Assembly (NCBI GenBank): GCA_024226555.1
Contig: JAAELO010000433.1
Span: 1 to 45,365 of the forward strand
Direction: 5' to 3'
From: Desulfobacterales bacterium
Lineage (GTDB): Bacteria; Desulfobacterota; Desulfobacteria; Desulfobacterales; JAAELO01
Length of the DNA: 45,365 nt
Each line of letters begins with the position of its first letter. The first letter of the stretch is position 1. The translations under genes were made by a program, and so were the position numbers. Positions 8,677 to 44,654 of the stretch are shown in pieces. The notes under the pieces were generated by a model that saw nothing but the letters and a program-made list of their open reading frames with translations, was not told the DNA's origin and ran no database searches.

Positions 8677-10194
8677 CTATTTAATAGTATCTTTAAATTC
8701 ATCAGCATAAGCAGTTAACGCCTTCTTTAGAATCTCCTCAGTTGCACTGGAAAGATCTCTTTCTGCTTTAATATTTGCAAACACATCAGGATAGTTGTTT
8801 TCAATGAAAGGATAAAGACCGGCTTCATATTTACCAAGAACACCGATTTCAAATTCATTTAAAAACCCTTTTGTACCAGCATAAAGAATTGGAACCTGCT
8901 TTTCAAGAGAAAGAGGCTTATACTGACCCTGTTTCAGGATCTCAACCATTCTCTCACCTTTAGTAAGAACTGCCTGTGTTGCAGCATCAAGGTCACTACC
9001 AAAAGATGCAAAAGCTGCAAGTTCTCTGTATTGTGCAAGGTCAAGACGAAGTGTTCCAGCAACTTTCTTCATCGCTTTTTCCTGTGCGGAACCACCAACC
9101 CTTGATACTGACAGACCAACATCAACAGCAGGTCTGTTTCCTGAAAAGAACATAGCTTTATCAAGGAATATCTGACCATCTGTAATAGAGATAACGTTAG
9201 TTGGAATAAATGCGGAAACATCACCTTCCTGGGTTTCAATAACAGGAAGTGCTGTTAAGGAACCTGCACCTAATTCATCATTTAACTTGCAAGATCTTTC
9301 AAGAAGTCTTGAGTGGTTGTAGAAAATATCTCCAGGGAAAGCTTCTCGTCCTGGTGGTCTTCTAAGAAGAAGAGATACCTGACGGTATGCTGCTGCCTGC
9401 TTGGAAAGGTCATCATAAACGATAAGAGCGTGTTCACCTTTATCTCTGTAGTACTCACCAATAGCAGTTCCTGCATAAGGAGCTAGGAACTGAAGTGAAG
9501 CAGGGTCACTGGCACAAGCTGCAACAACTGTTGTATATTCCATAGCGCCATGTTCTTCAAGAACAGCAACAACCTGAGCAACTGTTGATTTTTTCTGACC
9601 AGTAGCCACATAGACACACTTTAAGTCTGTCTCTTTCTGAGCAAGGATAGCATCGATAGCGATCGCTGTTTTACCGATCTGACGGTCACCGATAATAAGC
9701 TCACGCTGACCTCGTCCAACAGGAGTCATAGCATCAACTGCCTTTAGACCTGTGTAACATGGTTCATGAACACTTTTTCTTGCAATAACACCAGGAGCAA
9801 CTTCTTCAATTCTTCTGAACTCTTTGGAATCGATTGGTCCTTTTCCATCAATTGGCTCACCAACTGTGGTAACAACACGACCAAGAACAGCTTCTCCAAC
9901 AGGAACCTGAGCAATTTTACCAGTTCTTTTAACTACATCGCCTTCCTTGATTTCAAGGTCGGACCCCATGATAGCTATACCAACGTTATCTTCTTCAAGG
10001 TTAAGAACAAGTCCCATAACATTTCCAGGGAACTCAACAAGTTCCATAGCCATCGCATTTTCGAGGCCATAAACTCTGGCGATACCGTCACCTACTGAAA
10101 GAACAACTCCGGTTTCGCTCAATTCAACTTCTTTTTCAAAATCTTTAATTTGATCTTTGATTATCTGGCTTATTTCTTCAGCTTTGATTTCCAT
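8677..10194 (-). CDS. atpA: ATP synthase F1 alpha subunit
   Basis: Non-catalytic nucleotide-binding subunit of F1. The 505 residues have the P-loop [11 protein letters not shown] (about 170-180) and the alpha signature [14 protein letters not shown] (about 364-377). Length is typical. Its start overlaps the atpH stop by one base (10194), suggesting translational coupling. Confidence 0.98.
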
Positions 10195-29710: not shown

Positions 29711-30217
29711 ATGAAACTAACAGATATAATGAGTGTTGAAGAGTGGATCAAAATTGAAAAGGAAATACATGAAAAATCCGGTTTAAACCCTACCATTTAT
29801 GATACAGAGGGAGTTAGTATTACCCAGACAAGCACATGGGTAAACAAGCTATGTCCTGAAATAAAGGGGGTTCCCAAAGGCCAGACATTTATATGTTCAG
29901 CAGCACATCAGAACATAGCAAGTATGGCAGAGCAAACGAAAGAGCCTGTTATTGAAGAGTGTGATGCGGGTCTGTTGAAAATTGTTGTTCCAATTTATGT
30001 GGATGACACTTTCATTGGAGCAGCAGGAGGGTGTGGCCTTATGCTTGATGATAGCGAAGTTGAAGAATATCTTGTAAATATGACAGCGGGCATTGATGAA
30101 TCAATTATCGAGGAAAAAGCTAAAACGGTTAAAACTATTAGCCAGGAAGAAGCTGAAGAAGTCGCTGTTTTTATTATGAAAAGAATAACTGAGATAGTCG
30201 ATATTCATAAAAAGTAA
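29711..30217 (+). CDS. PocR-type ligand-binding sensory protein
   Basis: A 168-residue protein covering essentially one PocR domain, a PAS-like small-molecule sensor first described in the PocR regulator. Typical features are the N-terminal helix MKLTDIMSVEEWIKIEKEI, the GQTFICSAAHQNIA segment, EECDAGLLKIVVPI and GAAGGCGLM. No DNA-binding, kinase or diguanylate cyclase domain is attached, so any output must go through a partner. The gene is followed by its own terminator. It sits just upstream of the Hdr operon, but a functional link is only a guess. Confidence 0.82.
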   Translation: MKLTDIMSVEEWIKIEKEIHEKSGLNPTIYDTEGVSITQTSTWVNKLCPEIKGVPKGQTFICSAAHQNIASMAEQTKEPVIEECDAGLLKIVVPIYVDDTFIGAAGGCGLMLDDSEVEEYLVNMTAGIDESIIEEKAKTVKTISQEEAEEVAVFIMKRITEIVDIHKK

Positions 30218-30355: not shown

Positions 30356-30419
30356 TCTAAATTTGAGTTCTTGTGGTGCCAAAAAAATTATTTTAATTCT
30401 CTGGAATACTGAAAAATCT

Positions 30420-30953
30420 ATGGATAGTATAAATTTACAAAATCTTTTTTATGAGCTTGATGGGGATAGCATTTTAAGATGCATCCAATGCGGTACTTGC
30501 AGCGCATCATGTCCTTTGACTGATGAAATGGAGAATGCTCCCCGGGAGCTTTTTGCGCTGATCAGAGATGGAAATATAACCGAGGCCTTGTCCTCAGAAA
30601 CGCCGTGGTACTGTGTTTCATGTTATAAATGTATGACCAGATGTCCTAAAGAGATCCCGGTAACTGAGATTATTTACACACTTAAACAGTTAGCCGTTAA
30701 AGAGGGATATGCTCCCAAAAATCATAAAACTATCTCTCTAAACAGCTCATTTTCAAACTGTATAGAAAAAAAAGGAAAAGTTACCGAATCCGCTGTAATG
30801 AAATGTTATGGATTGAAACATCCAATTGATGTTTCAAAGAAAATACCCCTTGCTTTTAAGATGTTAAAACGAAACCGCCTTGAGATTATAACTCAAAAAA
30901 CAAAGAATCCGTCTTTATTAAAAAAGATGTTAGAGATGGGGGATGATAAATGA
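30420..30953 (+). CDS. hdrC: Heterodisulfide reductase subunit C-like Fe-S protein
   Basis: Small electron-transfer subunit that carries electrons between HdrA and HdrB. The 177-residue reading starts at MDSINLQNL. Two [4Fe-4S] motifs are visible: CIQCGTCSASCP (about residues 20-31) and CVSCYKCMTRCP (about 61-72). Both have the HdrC four-cysteine pattern. A longer in-frame reading from a TTG at 30363 begins at the predicted transcript start and is less likely. The stop overlaps the hdrB start by four bases. Confidence 0.9.
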   Translation: MDSINLQNLFYELDGDSILRCIQCGTCSASCPLTDEMENAPRELFALIRDGNITEALSSETPWYCVSCYKCMTRCPKEIPVTEIIYTLKQLAVKEGYAPKNHKTISLNSSFSNCIEKKGKVTESAVMKCYGLKHPIDVSKKIPLAFKMLKRNRLEIITQKTKNPSLLKKMLEMGDDK

Positions 30954-31771
30954 AGTACAGTTTTTACCCTGGTTGCGCCTTTAAAAGTTCAGCCGGATAT
31001 AAGGAATCATTTGAAGCTGTTATAAATGAACTGAATTTAAAATTTGAAGAGATAGAGGATTGGAACTGCTGCGGTGCAACTGTTACAAAAGGGGTTGATG
31101 ATTTTAAATCCCTTGTTCTAACCGGACGAATATTTGCAATTGCACATAGACAAGGTTATTCTGTAATAGCTACCGGATGCAACGCCTGTTATACAACTCT
31201 TCGAAAGGCTGCAAAAAAACTTTCTGAAAAGGATATCTGGGTAAAGGTTAAAGAAGCTTTATTGCTTGAAGAGCTCGAACTACCTGAAAAGATTGAAATC
31301 AAACATCTTCTTGAAATACTTGCAGATATTCCTGAAAAAACACTATCAAAAAACAGGCCCTCTTATATTAATGATATAAGCGTGGCTTCTTATTACGGCT
31401 GTCAGCTTACCCACCCATTTTCTAATGTTGGTGATGCTGAAAAACCTGGAATAATGGAGGATTTTCTAAAAAAACTCGGTTTTCAGGTTACAGAGCATTC
31501 CGCAGGTACCCTATGTTGCGGGGCATCCCTTGCTGTTCCCCATGAAGATAAGTGCAAAATTTTAATAGACAGGATACTTGGTGAGATAAAATACAGAAAA
31601 GCAGATGTTGTGTCCACAATTTGTCCTTTGTGTCAGTTCAATCTGGATAGTCAGAATAAGGGAATACCTATAACATACATCACCCAGCTTACAGGATTAG
31701 CTCTTGGAATAGCTCCTTCAAAGTTAGGTTTTGATAAATTACTTACATCAGCATCTGGAATTATTAAATAA
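30950..31771 (+). CDS. hdrB: Heterodisulfide reductase subunit B-like protein
   Basis: Catalytic-type subunit whose two CCG domains each hold a noncubane [4Fe-4S] cluster in HdrB, the site of disulfide reduction. The 273 residues contain both domains: YPGCAFKSS, WNCCGATV and TGCNACYTT in the first, and YYGCQLTHP, TLCCGASL and ICPLCQFNL in the second. All key cysteines are present. It overlaps hdrC by four bases and the next gene follows after 2 bases, so the CBA order is tightly coupled. The physiological disulfide is unknown, since CoM-S-S-CoB is not expected in a bacterium of this type. Confidence 0.93.
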   Translation: MKYSFYPGCAFKSSAGYKESFEAVINELNLKFEEIEDWNCCGATVTKGVDDFKSLVLTGRIFAIAHRQGYSVIATGCNACYTTLRKAAKKLSEKDIWVKVKEALLLEELELPEKIEIKHLLEILADIPEKTLSKNRPSYINDISVASYYGCQLTHPFSNVGDAEKPGIMEDFLKKLGFQVTEHSAGTLCCGASLAVPHEDKCKILIDRILGEIKYRKADVVSTICPLCQFNLDSQNKGIPITYITQLTGLALGIAPSKLGFDKLLTSASGIIK

Positions 31772-31773
31772 TT

Positions 31774-34700
31774 ATGGAACATAACAAACCAAAAATTGGT
31801 GTTTACATCTGTCATTGCGGAATGAATATATCTCCCAAGGTAAACGTTGAAGAGGTCTCATCCTTTACAGGTGAAATCAATAATGTGACGATTGCCCGGG
31901 ATTATAAATTTATGTGTTCTAATCCAGGACAGGAACTTATAACTGAAGATATAAAGAATCTTGGTTTAAACAGAGTTGTTGTTGCATCCTGCTCTCCAAG
32001 AATGCATGAACTGACTTTTAGAAAAGCATGTGAAAATGCTGGCCTTAACCAGTTTTATTTCCAGATGGCAAATATCAGAGAACATTCATCATGGGTTACT
32101 AAAGATAGCGCGCAGGCAACTAAAAAAGCAAAAGAACTGGTTTTTGCAGCAATTTCAAGGGTTGCATTTCACGCGCCCCTTGATACAAGGGAAGTAGATG
32201 TTAAAAAATCAGTTGTAATCATAGGTGGAGGAATAGCCGGAATGCAGGCAGCTCTTACCTCTGCCGAAGCCGGATTTGATGTACATCTTGTTGAAAGAGA
32301 ACCTTCAATTGGTGGTCACATGTCAAAATTTGACAAAACCTTTCCAACTCTTGACTGTGCTGCATGTATCTCAACACCAAAAACAGTTAATATAGGACAA
32401 CATCCAAATATAAACCTCCTTAGTTACAGTGAAGTCTCTGCTATTGAAGGATTTGTTGGAAATTACAATGTTACAGTAAAAAGAAAAGCAAGATTTATTA
32501 GTGAAGAAAAGTGTACAGGTTGCGGTCTTTGCACAGAGGTGTGCCCGGTAAATATAAGAAGCGATTTTGATGAGGGTTTATCAAATAGAAAAGCCGCATA
32601 CAGGTCATTTCCCCAAGCAGTGCCTTTAACATTTTGTATAGATAAAAAAGACACGGCCCCATGTAGAACAGGATGCCCAGCTGAACTTAATGTCCAGGGT
32701 TATCTTCAACTTGTTGGAATGAAAAAATACAGGGAAGCTATTGATCTTATAATGGAAAGAGTTCCACTTCCTGGTGTTTTAGGAAGAGTTTGCCCCCATC
32801 CATGTGAATCAAAATGCAGAAGAATCGATGTGGATTCAGCGGTTTCAATACGTGATATGAAACGTTTTGCAGCTGATCAGGTTGATTTTGAATCACTTGA
32901 TATCCCGGAAATAATAGAAAATGACAAGAAAATAGCTATCATAGGCTCTGGCCCGGCGGGTCTAACAGTCGCTTATGATATGAGACTTAAGGGATATAAG
33001 GTTACAATCTTCGAAGCCATGGAAAAAGCAGGGGGAATGCTTAGGGTCGGAATCCCTGATTACAGATTGCCTCAAAATGTTCTTGATGAAGAGATTAACC
33101 ACCTTCTGAGACATGGAATAGATATTAAATATAACAGCTCTTTTGGAAAAGATTTTACAACGAAAGATCTTTTAGATGAAGGTTATGATTCTGTTTTTCT
33201 TGGAATCGGCGCCCATAAAACCCTGAAAATGAGAATTCAGGGAGAAAATTCTAAAGGTGTATTAGATGCAGTTTCTTTTTTGAGAGACGTTAATACAGGT
33301 TCAACAAAGAAACCGGGTGAAAAGGTTGTTATAATTGGTGGTGGAAATGTGGCGATAGATGCAGCAGGAGTATCTAAAAGATTAGGATCTATTGATGTCA
33401 CAATCCTCTACAGAAGAACTGAAAAAGAGATGCCGGCATTTAAAGAGGAGATTGATCTTGTTCTTGATGAAGGCGTTAACCTGACAACACTTGTCTCTCC
33501 TGTAAAAATAGTTGAACAAAATGGTGTTGCAGTTGGAATTGAATGCATCAAAAATGAGCTTGGGCCAGCTGATGCAAGCGGCAGAAGAAGACCTGTTCCA
33601 ATTGAAGGCTCTGAATATATAATAGATTGCGATGCTGTAATTCCGGCAATAGGTCAGGAACCTGATATTTCATGGTTTGAAAAGGAACCTGAGCTTACAT
33701 TATCAAAATGGAATACAATTGAAACAAATACTAAGATGCAAACAGCAATACCTGAGGTTTTTGCCGGTGGTGATGGTGTAACAGGTCCTGCAACTGTCAT
33801 TGAAGCGATTGCAGCTGGGCACAGAGCATCTGAGTCAATGGACAAATATCTGTCTGGTGAGATTTTAGATGAAATAGAAGAACCAATTGACATATCAAAA
33901 GAAAACAATTTTTTAGATATTCCATCGGATTATTCAAAGAAACTAAAATCTGAAATGGAACATCTTTCCTCTGATGATCGAAAAGTAAACTTTAATGAGA
34001 TCTCAATGGGATTAACAGAGAGTCAGTCTGAAACTGAAGCTGAGAGATGTCTTAACTGTGGTGGTTGTTGTGAGTGCATGGAGTGCGTTAAAGCCTGTGA
34101 AGTTGAGGCCATTGATCATGCAATGGAGGAAGAGGAGATTCAAATAGAGACTGGAGCTGTAATTCTCTCAACTGGTTTTAAAGCTTTTGATCCATCTCCA
34201 ATGACACAATACGGATATGGAATTTATCCTGAAGTATACACAAGCCTTGAGTTTGAAAGATTGAACAATGCAACTGGTCCCACATCCGGGAAAGTATTGA
34301 TGAAAAATGGTGAGGTTCCAAAGAAGGTCGCAATTGTCCATTGTGTGGGTTCCAGGGATGATAAGCACAACAAATTTTGCTCAAGAGTTTGTTGCATGTA
34401 CTCAATGAAATTTGCCCATCTTCTGAAAGAGAAAACCGGAGCTGAAGTTTGGGAGTTTTATATCGATATTAGATCACCGGGAAAACTCTATGAGGAATTT
34501 TATAACAGAGTTCAGGAGGAGGGGGTTCATTTTATAAGGGGCAGAGTTGCAGAGATCACCGATATTCCGGATAATCCTGAGGATAGAGGTAAACTAACTG
34601 TGATTGCCGAAAATACTCTCACAAGAAGAACCGCAAGAATTCCGGTTGATATGGTTATATTAGGTGTTGGTTTAAATCCGGCCGAAGGTTCTGATGATGT

Positions 34701-35136
34701 AGGCAGAATGGCCGGTGTTTCAAGAGATGGAGATGGATGGTACAACGAACTCCATGCAAAGCTTGCCCCTGTGAGCACTCCAATAAACGGAATATTCCTT
34801 GCCGGGTGTTGTCAGGGACCAAAAGATATACCAGATACAGTGGCACAATCAATGGGAGCAGCTGGTGAAGCAATAGCTCTTCTTTCAAAAGGAACTGTTA
34901 AAACAATGGCTGAGATATCTGAGATAGACCCTGATATTTGTTCTGGTTGCAAAACATGCCTTACGGCTTGTTCCTACTCAGCAATAACTTTTAACGATTC
35001 AAAAAATATAGCTGTTGTAAACGAAGCTCTTTGTCAGGGCTGTGGAAGTTGCAGTGTTGCTTGTCCAAGCAGTTCCGCAAGTGTAAAACATTTTAATGAT
35101 ATTCAGGTAATGAATGAAATAGAAGCTCTATTATAA
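31774..35136 (+). CDS. hdrA: HdrA with inserted GltD/NfnB-like NAD(P)H oxidoreductase module
   Basis: Flavin- and Fe-S-containing core subunit where electron bifurcation takes place in Hdr complexes. The 1120 residues read as HdrA N-terminal domain (CHCGMNIS, 13-20) and FAD site GGGIAGMQAA (151-160). The first ferredoxin motif (CTGCGLCTEVCP, 247-258) follows. An inserted region of about 285-760 has its own Cys motifs (CRTGCPAE, CPHPCESKC), FAD site GSGPAGLTVA (391-400), NAD(P) site GGGNVAIDAA (522-531) and GGDGVTGPATVIEAI. HdrA then resumes with HCVGSRDD and two C-terminal 4Fe-4S motifs near 1059 and 1089. Usual HdrA is about 650 residues, so the insert adds a direct NAD(P)H port. Confidence 0.92.
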   Translation: MEHNKPKIGVYICHCGMNISPKVNVEEVSSFTGEINNVTIARDYKFMCSNPGQELITEDIKNLGLNRVVVASCSPRMHELTFRKACENAGLNQFYFQMANIREHSSWVTKDSAQATKKAKELVFAAISRVAFHAPLDTREVDVKKSVVIIGGGIAGMQAALTSAEAGFDVHLVEREPSIGGHMSKFDKTFPTLDCAACISTPKTVNIGQHPNINLLSYSEVSAIEGFVGNYNVTVKRKARFISEEKCTGCGLCTEVCPVNIRSDFDEGLSNRKAAYRSFPQAVPLTFCIDKKDTAPCRTGCPAELNVQGYLQLVGMKKYREAIDLIMERVPLPGVLGRVCPHPCESKCRRIDVDSAVSIRDMKRFAADQVDFESLDIPEIIENDKKIAIIGSGPAGLTVAYDMRLKGYKVTIFEAMEKAGGMLRVGIPDYRLPQNVLDEEINHLLRHGIDIKYNSSFGKDFTTKDLLDEGYDSVFLGIGAHKTLKMRIQGENSKGVLDAVSFLRDVNTGSTKKPGEKVVIIGGGNVAIDAAGVSKRLGSIDVTILYRRTEKEMPAFKEEIDLVLDEGVNLTTLVSPVKIVEQNGVAVGIECIKNELGPADASGRRRPVPIEGSEYIIDCDAVIPAIGQEPDISWFEKEPELTLSKWNTIETNTKMQTAIPEVFAGGDGVTGPATVIEAIAAGHRASESMDKYLSGEILDEIEEPIDISKENNFLDIPSDYSKKLKSEMEHLSSDDRKVNFNEISMGLTESQSETEAERCLNCGGCCECMECVKACEVEAIDHAMEEEEIQIETGAVILSTGFKAFDPSPMTQYGYGIYPEVYTSLEFERLNNATGPTSGKVLMKNGEVPKKVAIVHCVGSRDDKHNKFCSRVCCMYSMKFAHLLKEKTGAEVWEFYIDIRSPGKLYEEFYNRVQEEGVHFIRGRVAEITDIPDNPEDRGKLTVIAENTLTRRTARIPVDMVILGVGLNPAEGSDDVGRMAGVSRDGDGWYNELHAKLAPVSTPINGIFLAGCCQGPKDIPDTVAQSMGAAGEAIALLSKGTVKTMAEISEIDPDICSGCKTCLTACSYSAITFNDSKNIAVVNEALCQGCGSCSVACPSSSASVKHFNDIQVMNEIEALL

Positions 35137-35164
35137 AAACGGGCATACGGGAGTAAATACAGGA

Positions 35165-35596
35165 GTGAATAAGATGAGTGAACATAAACCTAAAATAGTA
35201 GCCTTGGTTTGTAACTGGTGTACATACACAGCTGCAGATTTAGCTGGTACTTCAAGACGTGATTACCCTTCTGAGATAAGGCTGGTTCGTCTTATGTGTA
35301 CCGGAATGATAGATTCAAAATACATCCTGAAAGCCTTCCTTGAAGGAGCTGATGGAGTTTTCATTGGTGGATGCCACCCCGGTGACTGCCATTATATAGA
35401 TGGAAACCTTAAAGCTGTTAAACGGATTGAAGCAATTGGAATCATGCTTGAGCAGTTCGGTTTTGAAAAAGAGCGTTTAAAATTAGAGTGGATTGGCGCA
35501 AGTGAAGGCCCTGAATTTCAGGAAAACATGCAGGAGTTTGCCAAAAAAATCGGTGATATGGGTAAAGTTCAAACAGCAGACAGAATGATCCTTTAG
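35165..35596 (+). CDS. mvhD: MvhD / HdrD-partner [2Fe-2S] subunit
   Basis: Electron-transfer protein that delivers electrons from an electron-donating module to HdrA. The 143-residue product has the family signature: CNWCTYTAADLAG near the N-terminus, RLVRLMCTG and GGCHPGDCHYIDGN, which together hold a [2Fe-2S] cluster. No hydrogenase (MvhA/G) gene is present, so the partner here is probably the NAD(P)H module or the FdhB-like protein. A GGAGTG ribosome-binding site precedes the ATG at 35174. A GTG at 35165 is an alternative start adding three residues. Confidence 0.93.
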   Translation: MNKMSEHKPKIVALVCNWCTYTAADLAGTSRRDYPSEIRLVRLMCTGMIDSKYILKAFLEGADGVFIGGCHPGDCHYIDGNLKAVKRIEAIGIMLEQFGFEKERLKLEWIGASEGPEFQENMQEFAKKIGDMGKVQTADRMIL

Positions 35597-35606
35597 GAGT
35601 AGAGAT

Positions 35607-36704
35607 ATGACAACATATATAGACCAGACAGAATCATACAAGGGCGAAGCAATTAAAAAACTGGCTGTTGAATTATTGAAAAACAATACAGTGGACTCCT
35701 TGTTTATTCCTTTTCAAAACAGTTATTCAGGTATCCCGATGCCATCACTTATTTCCGATCCGGAAAAAACTGATGGTATTGAACCAATAGCTCCGGTAGC
35801 TCCTTTTAATTCGGCAAAACAGGCAGCATCTGTAATAAAATATGCAACCGGAAAAAAAACAGCCTTCTTTTTAAGACCTTGTGAAATAAGAGCCCTTGTT
35901 GAGCTTGTTAAACTTAACCAGTGCACATTGGAAGATGCTGTAATCATAAGCTATGATTGCTACGGCAGAGTCGAAAACAAAAAATATCTTGAACTTTTAA
36001 GCAGCAATGATCAGGTAAATAAAGATTTCTATACTGATGAATCCCTGCAAAATGAGACGACAACAACATGCAAGTCATGTGATGCTTTCACACCATTAAA
36101 TGCTGATATCGCCATAAGCTTTATGGGTACAGACCAGTCTGTCTTCGAAGGAACAAGTGAAAAAGGAAGTGATGTTCTGTCTTCATTAAACTCAGCAATT
36201 GGAGGATCTTTAGATCTGAAAAGTGGCGGTTCTATTGACCAGAGTATCGTTGAAGGCATAAAAGAGAAAAGATCAAAAGAAAAAGAGACTCTGTTTTCAA
36301 AAACATCTGAAACCATAAAAGATGTTGATAGTTTCCAGAAAATGATAGGGAGTTGTTTAAACTGCTACAATTGCAGAACAGCCTGTCCGGTTTGCTATTG
36401 CAAAGAGTGTGTTTTTCTCACAGATATTTTTCTCCATGATCCTGATATCCTTCATCAAAGATCCATTAAAAAAGGGGTTTTAAAACTTCCTGTGGATACT
36501 ACAATGTTTCATATGACCAGAATTTCTCATATAAGCCATTCCTGTGTTGGATGCGGACAATGTACCAGTGTTTGTCCAAGTGATATTCAGGTAGCAGACA
36601 TGTTTCGAACAGTCAGTGAGAAAACCCAGGAAAAACTGGAATACAAAGCAGGACAAAATATAGAACAACCAATTCCATTTCTTGCATACAAAGAGGAAAA
36701 TTAA
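35607..36704 (+). CDS. FdhB/FrhB-like iron-sulfur (flavo)protein
   Basis: A 365-residue protein related to the beta subunits of F420-reducing hydrogenase / formate dehydrogenase. Supporting motifs are FFLRPCEIRALVELVKL (about 90-106) and CKSCDAFTP. The Cys-rich block CLNCYNCRTACPVCYCKECV (about 251-270) and a last 4Fe-4S motif CVGCGQCTSVCP (about 313-324) are also seen. It probably carries two or three clusters, and a flavin in family members. A catalytic FdhA is not encoded nearby. In Hdr clusters of sulfate reducers such proteins are thought to connect an external donor to the complex. The exact partner is unknown. Confidence 0.8.
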   Translation: MTTYIDQTESYKGEAIKKLAVELLKNNTVDSLFIPFQNSYSGIPMPSLISDPEKTDGIEPIAPVAPFNSAKQAASVIKYATGKKTAFFLRPCEIRALVELVKLNQCTLEDAVIISYDCYGRVENKKYLELLSSNDQVNKDFYTDESLQNETTTTCKSCDAFTPLNADIAISFMGTDQSVFEGTSEKGSDVLSSLNSAIGGSLDLKSGGSIDQSIVEGIKEKRSKEKETLFSKTSETIKDVDSFQKMIGSCLNCYNCRTACPVCYCKECVFLTDIFLHDPDILHQRSIKKGVLKLPVDTTMFHMTRISHISHSCVGCGQCTSVCPSDIQVADMFRTVSEKTQEKLEYKAGQNIEQPIPFLAYKEEN

Positions 36705-36707
36705 AAA

Positions 36708-39584
36708 ATGGATAGAAAGTTTTCAACCCTTGTTGCAGGCGCAGGAATAAGCGGAGTCAGAGCTGCTTTAGATCTTGCAGAATTAGGCTACAGGGTTCTT
36801 CTAATAGATAAAAAAGCAAGTGCAGGTGGCATCTTATCTCAGCTTGACTATCAGTTTCCAAATGACCATTGCGGAATGTGCAGAACACTTCCCATGATCG
36901 ACAGAAATAATGGAGCCCAGTTTTGCTTAAGAAAAGGTATATTCCATAAAAATATAACTTTCATGCCTGGTTGTGAGATTGAAACCGTTAAAGGCACACC
37001 TGGAAATCTTTCCATATCTTTAAAGAGATCACCACTTGGTGTTGACCCTGAAAAATGTACAGGATGTTTAAGCTGTGAGTCTGTTTGTCCTGTAACTGTA
37101 AAAGAGGATTTTAACGGAAACCTTTCCCAGCGCAAAGCGATCTATCTTCCGGTCCCACATAATATTCCAAACAAAAGAGTTATAGATTTTGAATCCTGCA
37201 CAAAATGCGGTGAATGTGTTTCGGAATGCCCCACAAATGCAATAGACATTACAAAAGATGTCGGGATCGAAACAATTGATGGAATTGGTTCTGTCATACT
37301 TGCAACCGGAACAGAGCTTTACAATCCCGATGGAGTGGATCTGTACAACACTTCCAAAATAAAAGATGTTGTAACAGCAACAGCTTTTGAAAGAATCATG
37401 AGCAGTTCAGGTCCTTATAAGGGAAAAATACAAAGACCATCAGATGGTAAAGAGATCAAAAAAGTTGCCTTTATACAATGTGTTGGTTCAAGAAATCTAA
37501 TGATAGGAGCAGATTACTGCTCAAGTGTCTGCTGCATGTTTGCCCTGAAAGAAGCTGCTCTTCTTGCAGAAAAAACCAAGAGTTCTGATTCAGCAATCTT
37601 CTGTATGGATCTTAGAACCTTTTCAAGAGATGGTGAAAGATACAAGGAAAGAGTTAAAGAAAAGGGTGTTCGCTTCATAAGGTCAAGAATTCACAGTGTG
37701 GAAAAAGATGATAGTGGTAATCCTTCAATCAGTTATGTGGATGCTGATGGAAAACAAAAATCAGAGTCCTTTGACCTTGTAGTATTATCAACCGGAAAAT
37801 CACAAAACCTTACACATCCTTCTTTTATTGAAAATGAAGGTGTTTTTGGAATAAGTGAAACACCAGATTTTAAAGAGATATCAGATTCTATGATAAACTC
37901 ATCTTTTGCATCTTCAAAAGCAATTCAGATCGCAAAAGAGTATGACTATGAAACTAAAAAAAGCAGTACTCAAATAAATGATGATGATCCAAAGCTTCAT
38001 ATCATTTTATGTTCCTGTGGGAATCTGTTTAAAGAAAATGTTGACCTGACAAAAATCACAGAAGATATATCCAGAATCTATGGAATTGGTATCACAACCA
38101 TTGATCAAGCCTGTAGTTTAGAAGGATGGAGTGAACTTAAATCCATAATAGATGAGAAGGGTGTAAACAGGTTAATAATAGGAGCCTGTAATCCTCAGAT
38201 TTTCAGTACAAAACTATCTGACAATTCACTTTTAACTGAGATAATTACTCTTGCCGAACATATCAGTGATACTGAATCAGTCGATGAAGCAACAAAATCT
38301 ATTCTTTCAGAAATAGCTTCTTCAATAGGCAGACTTAAAAAGTATACTCCTCAAAAAGTCAGATCCATGAATATTTCAAAAAGAGCTCTTGTTCTTGGAG
38401 GTGGCATATCAGGATTATCAAGTGCAAAAACCCTTTCTGATTCTGGTGTTCCTGTAACAATCGTTGAAAAAAGTGATAAATTAGGTGGGAACCTTCCATT
38501 CATAAGCGATGAAACTGTAATTAAATCAATTAAAAACTTAATAGAAAAAGTTAGTTCCGATTCAAATATCGATATTCTTTTCAACTCTGAATTATCTTCC
38601 CATAAAGGAGTACCGGGAAAATTTGAATCTGTAATTTCAAAAGAGAATACAGAACTTATAGTTCAAACCGGAAGTATAATCGTTGCAACAGGTGGCGGAA
38701 AAGCAAGCTTTGATGATGAAAATGAAAGAGTTAAAACCACCTTTGATCTTTCAATAGAACTGATGGAAAAGAAAGTTGATGCAAAAAACATTGTGATGAT
38801 GCAATGTAAAGATTCAAGAGTTGAGCCTTTCAACTATTGCAGCAGAATATGCTGCGGTAAAGCATTGGACAACGCTATCAAAATAAAAGAGCAAAACCCT
38901 GATGCAAAAATCACAATGTTCTACCGTGATATCATGGCCTATGGAGATATTGAAAAGAAATATACAGAAGCCAGAAGACGTGGTGTTATATTTAAAAGAT
39001 TTGAAAAAGAGAAATATCCTGAAGTCATTTCAAATGATAATGGATTTACTATTAAGGCATTCGATTTTATATTAAATGAGGATATCGAAATAAAAGCAGA
39101 TCTTTTGGTATATTCAACAGGAGTTGCTCCACAGGTTGATAACCTTGAAAAGACCCTTAAACTTAAAACAACTGTTGATGGTTTTATTAAGGAAGTAGAC
39201 TTTAAATTCAGACCAGTTGACACGGGAAAAGAGGGGATTTTCATTTGCGGCCTCAGACGAAACCCTGCAAATGCTTCTGAAGCCGAAAAAGAAGGAGTTT
39301 CTGCTGCACAAAGAGCCTTGCGTCTGCTAAATTCTGAGATATTAATATCATCAGGGCAGGTCGCTCACGTACGTCATTCAATATGTTCAAGGTGCAATGC
39401 ATGCGTTACCGCTTGTCCTTATACTGCAAGATTTGTATCGGTTGAAGACAGGAAGGTATATGTGGATGATATATCATGTCAGGGTTGCGGAACCTGCGCA
39501 TCAGTTTGCCCTAATAATGCAACAATAATAGAAGGTTTTGAAGAGAAAGGTATCCTTGATTCAATCGAAGCGGCACTAGGGTAG
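36708..39584 (+). CDS. Tandem-duplicated HdrA-like flavoprotein
   Basis: A 958-residue protein made of two HdrA-like halves. The first has FAD site GAGISGVRAALDLAELGY (11-28), the block DHCGMCRTLPMID, ferredoxin motifs CTGCLSCESVCP (117-128) and CTKCGECVSECP (164-175), and IQCVGSRN. The second begins near residue 425 with the N-terminal HdrA pattern (ILCSCGNLF). It continues with a second FAD site GGGISGLSSA near 560, MMQCKDSRVEPFNYCSRICC, and two C-terminal 4Fe-4S motifs (CSRCNACVTACP, CQGCGTCASVCP). Two flavins in one chain could split electrons or link two acceptors. It starts 3 bases after the FdhB-like gene. Confidence 0.88.
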   Translation: MDRKFSTLVAGAGISGVRAALDLAELGYRVLLIDKKASAGGILSQLDYQFPNDHCGMCRTLPMIDRNNGAQFCLRKGIFHKNITFMPGCEIETVKGTPGNLSISLKRSPLGVDPEKCTGCLSCESVCPVTVKEDFNGNLSQRKAIYLPVPHNIPNKRVIDFESCTKCGECVSECPTNAIDITKDVGIETIDGIGSVILATGTELYNPDGVDLYNTSKIKDVVTATAFERIMSSSGPYKGKIQRPSDGKEIKKVAFIQCVGSRNLMIGADYCSSVCCMFALKEAALLAEKTKSSDSAIFCMDLRTFSRDGERYKERVKEKGVRFIRSRIHSVEKDDSGNPSISYVDADGKQKSESFDLVVLSTGKSQNLTHPSFIENEGVFGISETPDFKEISDSMINSSFASSKAIQIAKEYDYETKKSSTQINDDDPKLHIILCSCGNLFKENVDLTKITEDISRIYGIGITTIDQACSLEGWSELKSIIDEKGVNRLIIGACNPQIFSTKLSDNSLLTEIITLAEHISDTESVDEATKSILSEIASSIGRLKKYTPQKVRSMNISKRALVLGGGISGLSSAKTLSDSGVPVTIVEKSDKLGGNLPFISDETVIKSIKNLIEKVSSDSNIDILFNSELSSHKGVPGKFESVISKENTELIVQTGSIIVATGGGKASFDDENERVKTTFDLSIELMEKKVDAKNIVMMQCKDSRVEPFNYCSRICCGKALDNAIKIKEQNPDAKITMFYRDIMAYGDIEKKYTEARRRGVIFKRFEKEKYPEVISNDNGFTIKAFDFILNEDIEIKADLLVYSTGVAPQVDNLEKTLKLKTTVDGFIKEVDFKFRPVDTGKEGIFICGLRRNPANASEAEKEGVSAAQRALRLLNSEILISSGQVAHVRHSICSRCNACVTACPYTARFVSVEDRKVYVDDISCQGCGTCASVCPNNATIIEGFEEKGILDSIEAALG

Positions 39585-39599
39585 AAGAGGAAAATATAT

Positions 39600-40811
39600 A
39601 TGGAAAACAGTAAAGATAAAACAGTAAAAGACCTTGCTCCTTTAAGGGATATTAAAAGTTCGCCTGAACTTTGCATGTCTTGTGGAACATGTTCAGCAGG
39701 GTGCCCAATTACCGGACAAGATGGTTTTGATCCCAGAAAAATCGTAGGTATGGTGATTGAGGGAAGAGATCAGGAACTGGTAGAGAGTAATCTTCCATGG
39801 CTTTGTACCATGTGCGCCAAATGTGAACACGCATGCCCAATGGGAATAAACATAACAGGAATTGTAAGAACAATCAGAGGTCTTGTTGACAGAGACAAGG
39901 TTCCGGGAATGATTCATAAAGGTGTGGAACTTTGCCTTGAAACAGGAAACAACATTGGTCTTCCATCTGAAGATTTCGATTTCATAATTGAAGATGTTGG
40001 TGAAGAGGTTGCTGAAGAGGAAGGCTATGAAGAGTTTGCAGCACCAATAGATAAAGAGAATGCAAATATTCTGCATACACTTCACAACAAACTGGTAAAC
40101 ACCCAAAACGAAGATCTTGTTCACTGGTGGAAGATTTTCCATGCTGCTGATGAAAGTTTTACGATCCCCTCTGAAAACTGGGAAGGTGTCAACTGGGGTC
40201 TTTTTTCAGGTGATGATGAATCCATGAAAACAGTGGTGGGAAGAATTGTCGAACACATGGAGAAGCTTAAGGTGAAAAACCTTATGTACCCCGAGTGAGG
40301 GCACGCATACATGGCAACCCGGTCAGGGTTGGAGAGATGGTTTCCTGAGTTTTTTGATAAGTATAATGCTTACACAGTATTTGATTTGATGAAGTCATAT
40401 ATTGAAGATGGAAGAATTAAGTTAGACAAGGAGATGTTCACACAAAGAATTGCATATCATGATCCTTGTAATTACGGTAGAAAATCCGAAGAGAAGTTCG
40501 GTTACGGATATTATGAAGAACCAAGGTGGATCTTAGATCAGTTTGCACCCAACTGGGTGGATCTCTTTCCATCTAAAGCAAATGGATATTGCTGCGGTGG
40601 CGGTGGTGGAACCATGCTTACACCTTTTAAAGAGGTGAGAAGTCATTATGGTAAGAAGAAGATTGAGCAGATAAAAAGAGTTGAACCGGAATTAATAGTA
40701 GTACCTTGTCATAGTTGTCATGGGCAGATACAGAGTTCCTTAAGTGAAGCGGAGATGGATATCCCTGTAAAGTATCTTTGGGAAGTAGTCGCAGACGCCT
40801 TAATTGTTTAG
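39600..40811 (+). CDS. HdrD/DsrK-like Fe-S oxidoreductase, selenoprotein (UGA read as Sec)
   Basis: Conceptual 403-residue protein with an in-frame TGA at 40296-40298 (codon 233). Before it are two ferredoxin motifs (CMSCGTCSAGCP, 25-36; CTMCAKCEHACP, 63-74) and a first CCG-like domain ending PE-[TGA]-GHAYMATRSGL. Relatives carry PECGHA at this place, so TGA replaces a conserved Cys. After it comes a normal second CCG domain: YHDPCNYGRK, YCCGGGGGTM and VPCHSCHGQI. The frame stays open and family-like on both sides. A SECIS-like hairpin follows at the right distance. Role: probable terminal disulfide- or acceptor-reducing subunit of the Hdr complex. The SelA/SelB/SelC genes needed must lie outside the window. 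Confidence 0.88.
40296..40331 (+). promoter_or_regulatory. Selenocysteine codon with bacterial SECIS-like hairpin
   Basis: TGA (40296-40298) is followed, after 16 bases, by a perfect 6-bp stem CAACCC (40315-40320) / GGGTTG (40326-40331) closing the loop GGTCA. The GGUC loop resembles that of E. coli fdhF, where SelB binds. The hairpin lies inside coding sequence, as bacterial SECIS elements do. Confidence 0.82.
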
Positions 40812-41006: not shown

Positions 41007-44000
41007 TTGAAAGTGATGAAAAAACCAAACTTATATCAAGGCCGGCCGTTACCACTTGCTGATTTAACTGCAAATTCGTTTGAAGACTTTACTCATCAAA
41101 TCTTAATTGAATTAGGTAATAAACGAGGCTTTGAAATAATCAGTGGCCCACAAAATAGTAGCGATTATGGTTTTGATCTAGTTGGTAGGCGTATATCTGA
41201 TGGGAATTTGATTTGTATTCAGTGTAAACGCTATAACAGCTCCTCAGTTGGATTGCCCACTGTCAGTGAAGAATTAGCAAAAGTAGCAATGAATTCTCAT
41301 TTAGAAGGGTCAACTGTTAAAGAACACTATGTACTGACCACGGGATCTCTAACAAAAGATCTAAATTCAAATCTTCGCAGTACAAAAAGAAAAAATATAT
41401 TAGAAAGCTGCTTAGAAAGTTTAGAAAAAGACTCTTTAAAAAACATTGTAAAAAAATGTAAAGAAAAAAACTTAAATGTTAAAAAAATTGTTACAGATTA
41501 CATTTATTCCCTTGAAAAAATAATAGTTTGGTCAGGAAGAGATATTGATAATAATCTCGGCTCTATTTGGTCCAAGATTGAAGATATCATAGAAAAACAT
41601 TTTAAGTTAGAAAGAGTTTTAAGAGAATATCCAAGACCAGACTTTGATGTATCAAATTATATTAATGAGATAACGACAGATGATGAAAACTTAATTGAAC
41701 TAATTTCTACTCCCACAGTATTACCGCCAAATATCAGCAAAATTGATCCAGAAAAATTTAATAATAAAGCAACTGAGGAGTTTGAATTTAATGATTTTAA
41801 ACCAATTATATCAGACCATTTACTATCAAAGGTTCCTAATAAACACTCCATACTCTTAACAGGACAAGGTGGAGCTGGCAAAACAACTATTTTAACCCAT
41901 TTTCAAGAAGTACTATCAAAGAAGTTTGAAAATACTGGTAGATTTGAAGTTCCTATTTATATTAAACTTGCGGGATTTAGAACCAACTTGGATGACTTAA
42001 TACATGATTCCTTAGGAATAACGTATGGACATTGGAGTTCGTTGCCTTATAACTTTTTTCTGCTATTAGATGGTTTAGATGAGATAAGTACAAATGATAT
42101 TAATCTTTTTACAAGTCAGTTTAATAGAATACTAAAAAGGCATGACATTAAAGCTATTATTTCATTAAGAACTGCAGGTTTACGCTTACCCATATACATG
42201 CCTAATATTAGCGGTTACTTCTCTTTGAATAAGCTTAATTTTCGTCAAATTATTAAGTTCTCTGAGTCAATATTAAATCAAAGTGATTCTAAAATATTCG
42301 TCGATATTCTTCTTAATAAAGCAAATTCATTAGGATCAAGGACTTTTACTTTACCTTTTGGATTGATGGTAGCTTTAGATTATTTCAAGACTCATAAAAA
42401 CTTACCAGATAATCTATATGACATAATCATGGATATTATCAAAAGAAGAATTGATAGAAACAAAAGTCGGCCTTCTTCTATTGATTCTTCAATTAATCTT
42501 GTGTCAGAGAATACTATATATGCTTTGGCTGAATCACTTGCTTTTGAAGTGAGAGTGATTTTAAAAAAAGCAGCGCTTTACAAAGCAGAAGTTGAAAATG
42601 CTATAGTTGCAGCTTTAAATAGACTTAAGAAACGTAATATTTTTGGGGCTTCTAGCTTATCTGACGAAATTGCTTTTTCAATTTCAGATCATTATGAAAT
42701 GCAACGAAACCTTGATCACAATTTATATGTAATGGATCATGACTTGATATCTGATTGTCTTTCTGCAAAGCTACTCGCAGAGCATTGGAAGGATTATATT
42801 GATCAAGCTGGTGATAAAATTGGTTGGGATGCATGGACTTTTGCTTCTCGTTTTGTCGTTGACAGTGACCAAAATGATTTTCTACAAAGAATGTTAAAGC
42901 AGGATCTTGCTCTCGCCGCTCGATGTTTTAAAGAAATGGATGAAGGTGATATAAAAATCATCGAAAGAGAAATAGAATCAAATGCTAAAGATTCATCGTT
43001 ACATCTATTTGCTAATGCAATGTATGCAGCTTCTATATTGAAAAGTAATTATTGTATAAAGCTATTGAATGAAAGTTTAAGCGAGAAAGATCCACATAGG
43101 AAATATAATACAAAAAGATTTCTATCGATATCAGGTGATGAAAAGTTTCTTAAAGAAATTCTTAAAGAAAATGAATTAGCCAAGGCTTGTTCATTAAATC
43201 CTTCCGGTGGAACATTTGATATGTGGTTTGAAGCACCTGTTAAAGTCATAACTAAGATAGCTAGAGAGCAAATCGATAAGTATCTTTTTGGAAAAGTACC
43301 TCATGTACCAATATCTTTAGAAACATTAGAACTATACGGAGACAACACCGATTTTTATAGGGTTGAAGAAGTTTTTAATAAAACAGAGAATTCTGTAGAA
43401 TTTTATATATCAAGTAGATGTTTATTGGCTTTTGATGTTGATCTTGCTGTTAAAATACTAAAATCAAAAGCGCAAAATCTTGAAGATAAATTTGGATTGA
43501 AAGCAATGAATGTGCTAAATGGGTATGGATTTTCTTTTAACATAGCCCCTTTGTTTAAAAGATTTTTGGCAACTAAAGAACTTAAAAATCATGAAGAAAT
43601 AATTGGATTCAAAGACATAACTGAAATTCTTAGCTCAAATACTCTCCCCATAGATGCAGCTGAAAAACTTTTAAAACACCTCGATAATTTAGATTTAACC
43701 AAAAATAAAATCACATCACTATATCAGTTTTATAATATTTGGCAAATTGCAACTACTCAAAAGTATATTGAGTTTTCAGATAAAGCATTAGAACAACTTG
43801 ATGATGGTACAATACCTGAGTTATCAGTTAGTTTAACATACTGTAATGAGCTATTAGCTGATAGCCCTAAAAGGTCAATATTTATTGAAAAATGTTTGAC
43901 TCAATTGAGGCTAAAGCTTGATGAAGAAATACCAACGTTTCCCCTTATTAGGAGTATGTTAAAAATTCTTTTTGATTTTGGTGAACAAAAAAATATCATA

Positions 44001-44654
44001 AAGTCAGCCGAAAAACTGCTGAAAAGACATACTTCAAAATATTTTCAGATTTTAAAAAATGAGATTGATAAAGAAAATGATTTAACCTCCATGTATAAAC
44101 TTGATTTCCCTGAAATATTAACTTCATTGATAAATATAAAGCATGAGTTAGATTCAAAATTGTTGATAGATCTTGTTGGAACTGATGTTTGTAGTAGATC
44201 TAAAGAAATAAAACATGCTTATTGTGAGATTTTAAATTTTTTGCCACGAGATATTGTAGAAAATAAAATCTCAAAAATAAAAGATCCATTCATCAAAATA
44301 GAAAGTTTAGGTTGTTTATTGAATCTTAAAAAAAACAGCTCTACTAAAGAACTTTTTATAGAAAATATTCAATTAATGTTCACAGATCATTTCTATTATC
44401 CAAACCTAATAAAATTTTCTGAAATATATTGGGGTGATGACGTTAAAAATACAATTTTTGAATCTTTTATTAGATTTGATTGGGGGCCACACCAACAAAT
44501 CTTGGTGCAAACATTTCAAAAAGTTATGGAAGAATTATCATTTTTATTTAATCAAAACGATATAGAAACGCTATTTATTCCGGCGAAACATTCTATAAAA
44601 AATCAGTTTACAATTTATCTGATAGACCTTTGGATAGAATTTATTAAAAAATAG
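41007..44654 (+). CDS. Mrr-like nuclease / NACHT NTPase, putative anti-phage STAND protein
   Basis: A solitary 1215-residue protein. Residues about 20-120 look like an Mrr-type PD-(D/E)xK endonuclease: FEDFTHQIL, GFDLVGR (Asp57) and CIQCKRY (Gln72, Lys74). Residues about 280-420 are a NACHT NTPase with Walker A GQGGAGKTT (286-294) and Walker B LLLDGLDEIS (352-361). The remaining ~750 residues are helix-rich without a named domain and are the likely sensor. This plan matches Avs / bacterial NACHT defence proteins, in which phage sensing activates the nuclease. No partner gene is seen. The TTG start at 41007 has AGAAGAG upstream; the ATG at 41016 is an alternative. High AT content and flanking repeats suggest horizontal gain. 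Confidence 0.85.
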   Translation: MKVMKKPNLYQGRPLPLADLTANSFEDFTHQILIELGNKRGFEIISGPQNSSDYGFDLVGRRISDGNLICIQCKRYNSSSVGLPTVSEELAKVAMNSHLEGSTVKEHYVLTTGSLTKDLNSNLRSTKRKNILESCLESLEKDSLKNIVKKCKEKNLNVKKIVTDYIYSLEKIIVWSGRDIDNNLGSIWSKIEDIIEKHFKLERVLREYPRPDFDVSNYINEITTDDENLIELISTPTVLPPNISKIDPEKFNNKATEEFEFNDFKPIISDHLLSKVPNKHSILLTGQGGAGKTTILTHFQEVLSKKFENTGRFEVPIYIKLAGFRTNLDDLIHDSLGITYGHWSSLPYNFFLLLDGLDEISTNDINLFTSQFNRILKRHDIKAIISLRTAGLRLPIYMPNISGYFSLNKLNFRQIIKFSESILNQSDSKIFVDILLNKANSLGSRTFTLPFGLMVALDYFKTHKNLPDNLYDIIMDIIKRRIDRNKSRPSSIDSSINLVSENTIYALAESLAFEVRVILKKAALYKAEVENAIVAALNRLKKRNIFGASSLSDEIAFSISDHYEMQRNLDHNLYVMDHDLISDCLSAKLLAEHWKDYIDQAGDKIGWDAWTFASRFVVDSDQNDFLQRMLKQDLALAARCFKEMDEGDIKIIEREIESNAKDSSLHLFANAMYAASILKSNYCIKLLNESLSEKDPHRKYNTKRFLSISGDEKFLKEILKENELAKACSLNPSGGTFDMWFEAPVKVITKIAREQIDKYLFGKVPHVPISLETLELYGDNTDFYRVEEVFNKTENSVEFYISSRCLLAFDVDLAVKILKSKAQNLEDKFGLKAMNVLNGYGFSFNIAPLFKRFLATKELKNHEEIIGFKDITEILSSNTLPIDAAEKLLKHLDNLDLTKNKITSLYQFYNIWQIATTQKYIEFSDKALEQLDDGTIPELSVSLTYCNELLADSPKRSIFIEKCLTQLRLKLDEEIPTFPLIRSMLKILFDFGEQKNIIKSAEKLLKRHTSKYFQILKNEIDKENDLTSMYKLDFPEILTSLINIKHELDSKLLIDLVGTDVCSRSKEIKHAYCEILNFLPRDIVENKISKIKDPFIKIESLGCLLNLKKNSSTKELFIENIQLMFTDHFYYPNLIKFSEIYWGDDVKNTIFESFIRFDWGPHQQILVQTFQKVMEELSFLFNQNDIETLFIPAKHSIKNQFTIYLIDLWIEFIKK

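Follow-up and report, generated by a model that had tools for sequence, protein, structure and literature searches.

The question raised by this locus is whether an in-frame TGA ends one iron-sulfur protein gene just before another, or lies within a single longer gene. In the window, the 45,365-nucleotide stretch of Desulfobacterales DNA analysed here, whose source is a relative of sulfate reducers, two open reading frames, 39600-40298 and 40311-40811, lie in the same frame on the forward strand, as an earlier note on this DNA had described, and they are indeed separated by nothing other than the TGA at 40296-40298 and the four codons GGG CAC GCA TAC. Together they make a single reading frame (39600-40811, + strand) with one TGA, which, read as selenocysteine (Sec), is residue 233 of a 403-residue HdrD/DsrK-like iron-sulfur protein and lies within the sequence L-M-Y-P-E-U-G-H-A-Y. 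The NCBIfam profiles HmcF (170.9 bits), TmcB (160.6 bits) and DsrK (145.1 bits) span the TGA and cover most of the joined protein, and either half by itself scores below the joined protein with these profiles. Five TGA junctions in the window have at least 70 open codons on each side, and only that at 40296-40298 joins gene halves; of the other four, three run antisense to genes, and the fourth shares its strand with a gene but not the reading frame.

The relatives studied were the best 80 of 251 confirmed named loci. TGA occupies the codon-233 site in all 80, followed by GHA in 78 and GHS in two; one of the loci with TGA, L053, is from a metagenome-assembled genome titled Desulforapulum autotrophicum. 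A search of 116 genomes of the order gave 51 top-ranking rows at the orthologue level, with identities of 41-100% and E values of 1.1e-101 or better, the genome's own match among them; 49 of these rows have exactly one TGA and two have none. Across 297 genomes of the phylum, 59 had a match at E 1e-80 or better; the 92 rows listed contain one TGA in 57 cases and none in 35, counted per row irrespective of where the TGA lies, and every listed row of at least 49% identity contains TGA. In comparisons of five sequence pairs, pN was 0.14-0.24 and pS 0.78-1.04 on both sides of the TGA, raw values being reported instead of dN/dS because synonymous sites are saturated. A conserved TGA combined with few amino acid changes against near-saturated synonymous changes points to more than chance, and we conclude that 39600-40811 is almost certainly one gene, whose UGA inserts selenocysteine into an electron-transfer protein.

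Relationships were examined in a FastTree phylogeny of 132 distinct sequences rooted on the genome's own DsrK, which was reduced from 152 by removing identical sequences after second copies L149-L151 and also L160 (a second copy of the L139 gene, its stretch continuing through further TGAs) had been dropped. The Sec column holds U in 113 sequences and Cys in 19, with U in all 90 distinct sequences of the clade that includes the 39600-40811 gene and a division of 23 U to 12 Cys in a second subfamily with the motif NTE-[U/C]-GH, tallies that are not frequencies because the loci were picked for various reasons. The sister of the first clade consists of two Cys proteins (L133 and L134) with Cys-Gly-Gly and no His. 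The genome's own HmcF, its TmcB-like protein (722.5 bits, slightly below the cut-off of 735) and its true DsrK, which is another gene (743.8 bits), all have E-C-GH at the Sec column. The expectation that HdrD/DsrK-like homologues would have Cys at position 233 was thus borne out in DsrK, TmcB-like, HmcF and other relatives, and the alignments combine the two marks of a bacterial selenoprotein, a UGA in a conserved frame and Cys in homologues. The same genome also encodes two paralogues of the NTE-U-GH type in which the UGH site likewise has an in-frame TGA (L135, C593:439-1572; L152, C380:107948-108982) and a third member of the superfamily with Cys there (L136, C821).

The joined protein begins with an HdrC-like part (39672-39836), recognised by Fer4_8 and by HdrC chains in the PDB, whose two [4Fe-4S] motifs, Cys25, 28, 31, 35 and Cys69, 72, 75, 79, are invariant in alignments of 30 and 53 rows. 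A first CCG-type domain follows (40062-40448, approximately residues 155-283, the end being approximate), which matches the HdrB fold from residue 155 and has no CCG motif, and then a second CCG domain (40449-40733; PF02754 at residues 284-378), whose noncubane-type ligand set, identified from the alignment with EtfD, is complete and invariant (Cys290, 331, 332, 370 and 373). Apart from Sec233, no Cys/Sec position is invariant in the first CCG-type domain, or anywhere between residues 79 and 290, in the 30- and 53-row alignments; Gly234 and His235 beside it are also invariant. An AlphaFold model, built from the 53-row alignment of the window protein with 52 of the 80 studied loci, has a mean pLDDT of 89.2. 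Its best fold match is EtfD of Mycobacterium smegmatis (PDB 9ojn), with residues 1-403 superimposed on EtfD 277-747 only (Z 27.2, rmsd 2.9, 372 residues aligned), and residues 155-403 match HdrB (Z 19.9-21.1). LutA (9a6l, Z 21.2) and a Helicobacter pylori protein (3kwl, Z 20.4) rank beside HdrB in the fold search, so that Hdr is not singled out by fold alone. As modelled, the overall fold is HdrBC/EtfD-like.

Sequence alignment with EtfD places Sec233 opposite Cys581, His235 opposite His583, Ala236 opposite Cys584 and Cys331 opposite Cys672. According to the available text of PMC13083937, EtfD holds a linear [3Fe-4S] cluster by Cys503, 538, 581 and 584 and a noncubane cluster by Cys637, 672, 673, 709 and 712 together with His583, which completes the coordination and renders the cluster non-catalytic. 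The earlier note had placed Sec at a likely ligand or redox residue of a first CCG-like domain that lacks a CCG motif. The position holds, Sec233 lying opposite EtfD Cys581, but a first cluster of the HdrB or EtfD type is unlikely because Sec233 alone remains of the first-domain ligands. That a complete first cluster exists with Sec as one of its ligands was rejected, since the 30- and 53-row alignments lack the remaining ligands. Since the other ligands of the first cluster are gone, and Sec233 and His235 take the positions of EtfD Cys581 and His583, we infer from the sequences a lone selenol facing the single remaining noncubane cluster, with chemistry of the thiol/disulfide type. By analogy, catalysis at the noncubane cluster would be less likely if His235 acts like EtfD His583.

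It is also conceivable, if rather unlikely, that Sec233 serves as a ligand with a structural or redox-tuning role, binding either the noncubane cluster or a reduced first cluster, and that the protein is only an electron relay like EtfD, in which Cys581 is a cluster ligand and which is described as an electron wire in the available part of PMC13083937. The invariance of His235, opposite EtfD His583, fits such a relay. However, between residues 79 and 290 only position 233 is invariant as Cys/Sec, five Cys are already present at the second site, and it would be unusual for Sec to bind an Fe-S cluster.

A bacterial SECIS (bSECIS) hairpin lies at 40315-40331 (+ strand); with a 6-bp CAACCC/GGGTTG stem and a GGTCA loop, it begins 16 nt after the TGA and has its loop at 22 nt. 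The published bSECIS model specifies a loop of 3-9 nt, a stem of 4-16 bp, a UGA-to-loop distance of 16-37 nt, a minimum free energy (MFE) of -7.5 or lower and a G in the first two loop positions; the window hairpin conforms, with its GGUCA loop, 6 bp, 22 nt and a core energy of -9.8 kcal/mol. For the 24-nt core this MFE corresponds to a z of -2.73. Minimum-energy folding of 40296-40340 does include the hairpin proposed in the earlier note, but shuffled versions of these 45 nt are about as stable as the real sequence (z -0.74; 46 of 200 shuffles fold as well), and when a 27-nt stretch was folded in each of 81 sequences the expected core was predicted in 56; for these reasons single-sequence folding was not used as proof. 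What established the hairpin was covariation across relatives.

Codons of the hairpin were compared in 81 sequences, the window and the best 80 of 251 loci. Thr240 is encoded by ACC in all 81, the share of ACC among Thr codons in these genes being 0.58. Arg241 is CGG in 41 and AGG in 40, with no other codon used, and Gly243 is GGT in 49, GGG in 31 and GGC in one, though GGC is the commonest Gly codon of these genes. Where the first position of the Arg codon is A, it pairs with T at the third position of the Gly codon in 40 of 40 cases; where it is C, 31 of 41 have G as the partner, and the remaining 10 have an alternative partner in the final G of the intervening codon. In L053-L132 and the window, AGG/GGT or CGG/GGG codon pairs accompany a nearly constant protein sequence.

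This covariation of Arg and Gly codons therefore indicates two hairpin registers, one base apart, in 49 and 32 sequences, respectively. In their own register, the class of 49 forms the successive pairs in 39 (the loop-closing pair), 49, 49, 49 and 49 sequences and the sixth in none, and the alternative register allows two of its first five pairs in only 0 and 3 of the 49. The class of 32 forms its own pairs in 32, 32, 31, 22, 27 and 24 sequences, and in the other register three pairs form only in 0, 0 and 1; some inner C-G pairs are formable in either register. Register changes take 4 steps on the tree against a mean of 24.7 in 200 shuffles. The mean energy of the 27-nt stretch is -9.0 kcal/mol in the real sequences and -4.5 kcal/mol after synonymous resampling, with five of 200 resamples reaching the real mean. 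The identification of 40315-40331 as a SECIS element is thus supported, on a comparative case.

The genome (7.69 Mb in 904 contigs, completeness 97.95%, contamination 3.7%) was searched for selA, selB, selC and selD, as had been proposed, and all four are present. The tRNA-Sec (selC) scores 73.3 bits, above the Rfam cut-off, and has the anticodon TCA according to ARAGORN; profile searches gave SelA at 613.8 bits and SelD at 358.8 bits, selD carrying an in-frame TGA of its own. The best SelB match (335 bits, profile 25-580) begins at a contig start, and a separate piece covering profile 1-70 lies at the end of another contig.

Selenium supply governs the decoding of Sec, and a complete HdrC-like domain precedes the TGA; both would suit a selenium switch, in which plentiful selenium gives the full protein and scarce selenium a working HdrC-like protein of 232 residues. 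We consider such a switch very improbable, as there is no sign here of a role for the short form, which would keep most of the first CCG-type domain (residues 155-232) severed from its partner. Slightly less credible still, and rejected here, is that the UGA is a true stop, leaving either two proteins (HdrC-like and half-HdrB-like) or a pseudogene: TGA does terminate five of the 33 window ORFs checked and an ATG lies four codons past the TGA at 40296-40298, but the site holds TGA, never TAA or TAG, in 80 of 80 relatives (the best 80 of 251), constraint flanks and crosses the junction, the synonymous positions that follow the TGA are either constant or covarying, and the genome has the Sec machinery. 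Global reassignment of UGA was also excluded, by the same five terminated ORFs and by Cys as the homologous residue.

The Sec gene is the last of seven forward-strand genes (30363-40811), spaced by no more than 28 nt, in the order hdrC-hdrB-hdrL(HdrA+GltD)-mvhD-fdhB-like-hdrA-hdrD(Sec). The first encodes an HdrC-like dicluster ferredoxin (30363-30953; Fer4_8 and Fer4_17), for which the TTG start may be too far upstream, and the second an HdrB-like protein with two CCG domains (30950-31771; PF02754 in two stretches). The hdrL-type gene (31774-35136) encodes an HdrA into which a GltD-like NAD(P)H module is inserted at about 288-795, with HdrA2 matching in two stretches around it. It is followed by mvhD/flpD (35165-35596; PF02662, E 1.1e-49), a weakly assigned gene for an FdhB/FrhB-like iron-sulfur protein (35607-36704; Fer4, with FrhB_FdhB_C below its cut-off) and a second hdrA-like gene with repeated HdrA parts (36708-39584; HdrA2 in three stretches). 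Among the profile matches listed for the seven genes there is no large or small hydrogenase subunit. Upstream of the cluster, 29711-30217 encodes a stand-alone PocR sensory-domain protein, relatives of which occur within the fetched stretch in 31 of the 80 loci, in both gene settings. At 41007-44654 is a 1215-residue protein with Mrr-type nuclease and NACHT ATPase domains, possibly concerned with defence, which had no PADLOC match (PADLOC-DB 2023).

Synteny was scored in 37 of the 80 studied loci, those in which the match begins no earlier than base 9000, so that 9 kb or more of upstream sequence is available. All six partners, judged by the identity thresholds applied, are present in 14 of the 37, none in 23, and a partial set in no case; more distant HdrA- and MvhD-like genes are present in many of the 23 loci that lack the partners. 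The 14 full-cluster loci fall in one clade (27 tips, support 1.0), which also includes 12 tips that were unscorable and one locus without partners (L065). By the test used, the GltD module lies inside HdrA in six of the 14 full-cluster relatives and was undetected inside HdrA in the other eight. In three other loci that were scanned (L092, L118 and L131) the Sec gene instead follows two HdrA-type genes, the second of which reaches the MvhD-like end of the HdrA2 profile, and in 43 of the 80 studied loci the end of an MvhD-like stretch lies within 400 nt of the Sec gene on its upstream side.

We regard it as very nearly certain that this is a 403-residue HdrC-HdrB fusion of the HdrD/DsrK type, predicted to incorporate selenocysteine at UGA233 by SelA/B/C/D through the downstream SECIS element. 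Electron entry at HdrA flavoproteins is known for enzymes of the HdrABC/MvhD type. Here the HdrA/HdrL flavoproteins would take up electrons from NAD(P)H and other carriers, and the electrons would leave for disulfide-type or carrier acceptors by two routes, HdrBC and HdrD(Sec). The Sec protein is likely to be the second catalytic or electron-exit subunit of the cluster's flavin-based complex, itself probably bifurcating or confurcating. Within it, the two ferredoxin-type clusters would feed the noncubane [4Fe-4S] cluster of the second CCG domain. More tentatively, the substrate, a disulfide, trisulfide or thiol, may be bound transiently to Sec233 as a selenenyl-sulfide while the noncubane cluster takes the other sulfur. 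Proteins of the DsrC type are candidate substrates because CCG domains like those of HdrB and TmcB are predicted, in the available text of PMC10553843, to interact with DsrC. Taken as a whole, a Sec gene encoding a subunit of the cluster's complex with its selenol at the noncubane cluster is quite probably the best explanation.

Comparison with known systems shows where this protein belongs. Its best NCBIfam profiles are DsrK, HmcF and TmcB, yet the scores of 145-171 bits fall well short of the cut-offs of 400-750 (400 for DsrK, NF045796), and these proteins carry Cys, not Sec, at the column, within E-C-GH in this genome's own copies. DsrK, HmcF and TmcB are parts of membrane complexes. Nor is it GlpC proper (TIGR03379, 45.4 bits against a cut-off of 279.9). 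With HdrB of HdrABC it shares the fold of two CCG domains, but HdrB has two noncubane clusters (PMC13083937, available text), and the full Cys set of each CCG domain that marks HdrB/HdrD is found here only in the second. The second-site ligands match those of EtfD, the best fold match; EtfD, as described in the same partial source, additionally contains a membrane/heme region and binds a linear [3Fe-4S] cluster at its first site, and the Sec protein has neither such a region nor the complete set of first-cluster ligands.

Another close likeness is to the GlpC-like UGH family (reference protein WP_174406253.1; PMC13188914, PMC9312934, PMC1794560 and PMC1914089, each available in part), likewise an Fe-S oxidoreductase with Sec-Gly-His and found in Deltaproteobacteria with hdrA and frhD genes. 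The protein described here has U233-G234-H235 together with Fer4 and CCG domains, and is likened to the family by motif and description. In the published operon the order is glpC-hdrA-frhD-frhG-frhA; the present cluster differs in the addition of hdrB, hdrC, the NAD(P)H module and the fdhB-like gene. The 2026 review PMC13188914, in its available text, includes an 'Fe-S oxidoreductase-like protein, PTHR43551, UGH' among its high-confidence family predictions; an Fe-S oxidoreductase TGA cluster appears in PMC1914089, and PMC8318568 records an Fe-S oxidoreductase selenoprotein in a deltaproteobacterium.

The gene types of the seven-gene cluster also recur in locus VIII of Desulfobacterium autotrophicum HRM2, for which a figure legend of PMC2702500 gives an hdrL/hdrA4 tandem, hdrB, hdrC, a gene for formate dehydrogenase subunit B and, after hdrA4, hdrD2. 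The selenoproteins of energy metabolism named in the available text of that paper include HdrD as hdrD4, not hdrD2, in a list that ends 'and others (Table S3)' and is incomplete, since hdrF2, given as a selenoprotein elsewhere in the paper, is omitted. In the parts of the sources available, the five Sec genes of D. multivorans (PMC5109826) do not include HdrD, PMC12142623 has HdrL without selenocysteine, PMC2398784 and PMC10553843 hold nothing on a Sec-containing HdrD/DsrK-like family, and PMC11887813 has none of the terms sought. Searches combining DsrK with noncubane, CCG or cysteine, or with heterodisulfide reductase and selenocysteine, returned no paper, and among titles and the starts of abstracts, in a search that covered neither subscription papers nor preprints, only the HRM2 paper concerned a Sec-containing HdrD/DsrK-like subunit. 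The earlier note was right that Sec in Fe-S oxidoreductases is known, but this position and setting, which it suggested may be less described, are less novel than that, given the tabulated UGH family (PMC13188914) and HRM2 locus VIII (PMC2702500). This kind of selenoprotein is already known; 39600-40811 is a well-supported further member in which the position of the selenium is informative, and its novelty is modest.

What is new is firm comparative evidence for an operon-linked branch of the family, covariation in its SECIS element and a structural reading of the Sec site. The covariation of codons between two registers makes a good natural test case for the rules of bacterial SECIS elements, and the EtfD comparison gives a catalogue entry, 'Fe-S oxidoreductase-like' with its function uncharacterised, a testable site in the form of a putative selenol opposite a noncubane cluster. 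Here and in dozens of related genomes, gene prediction that treats UGA only as a stop would break the gene in two and miss what is probably an active-site residue.
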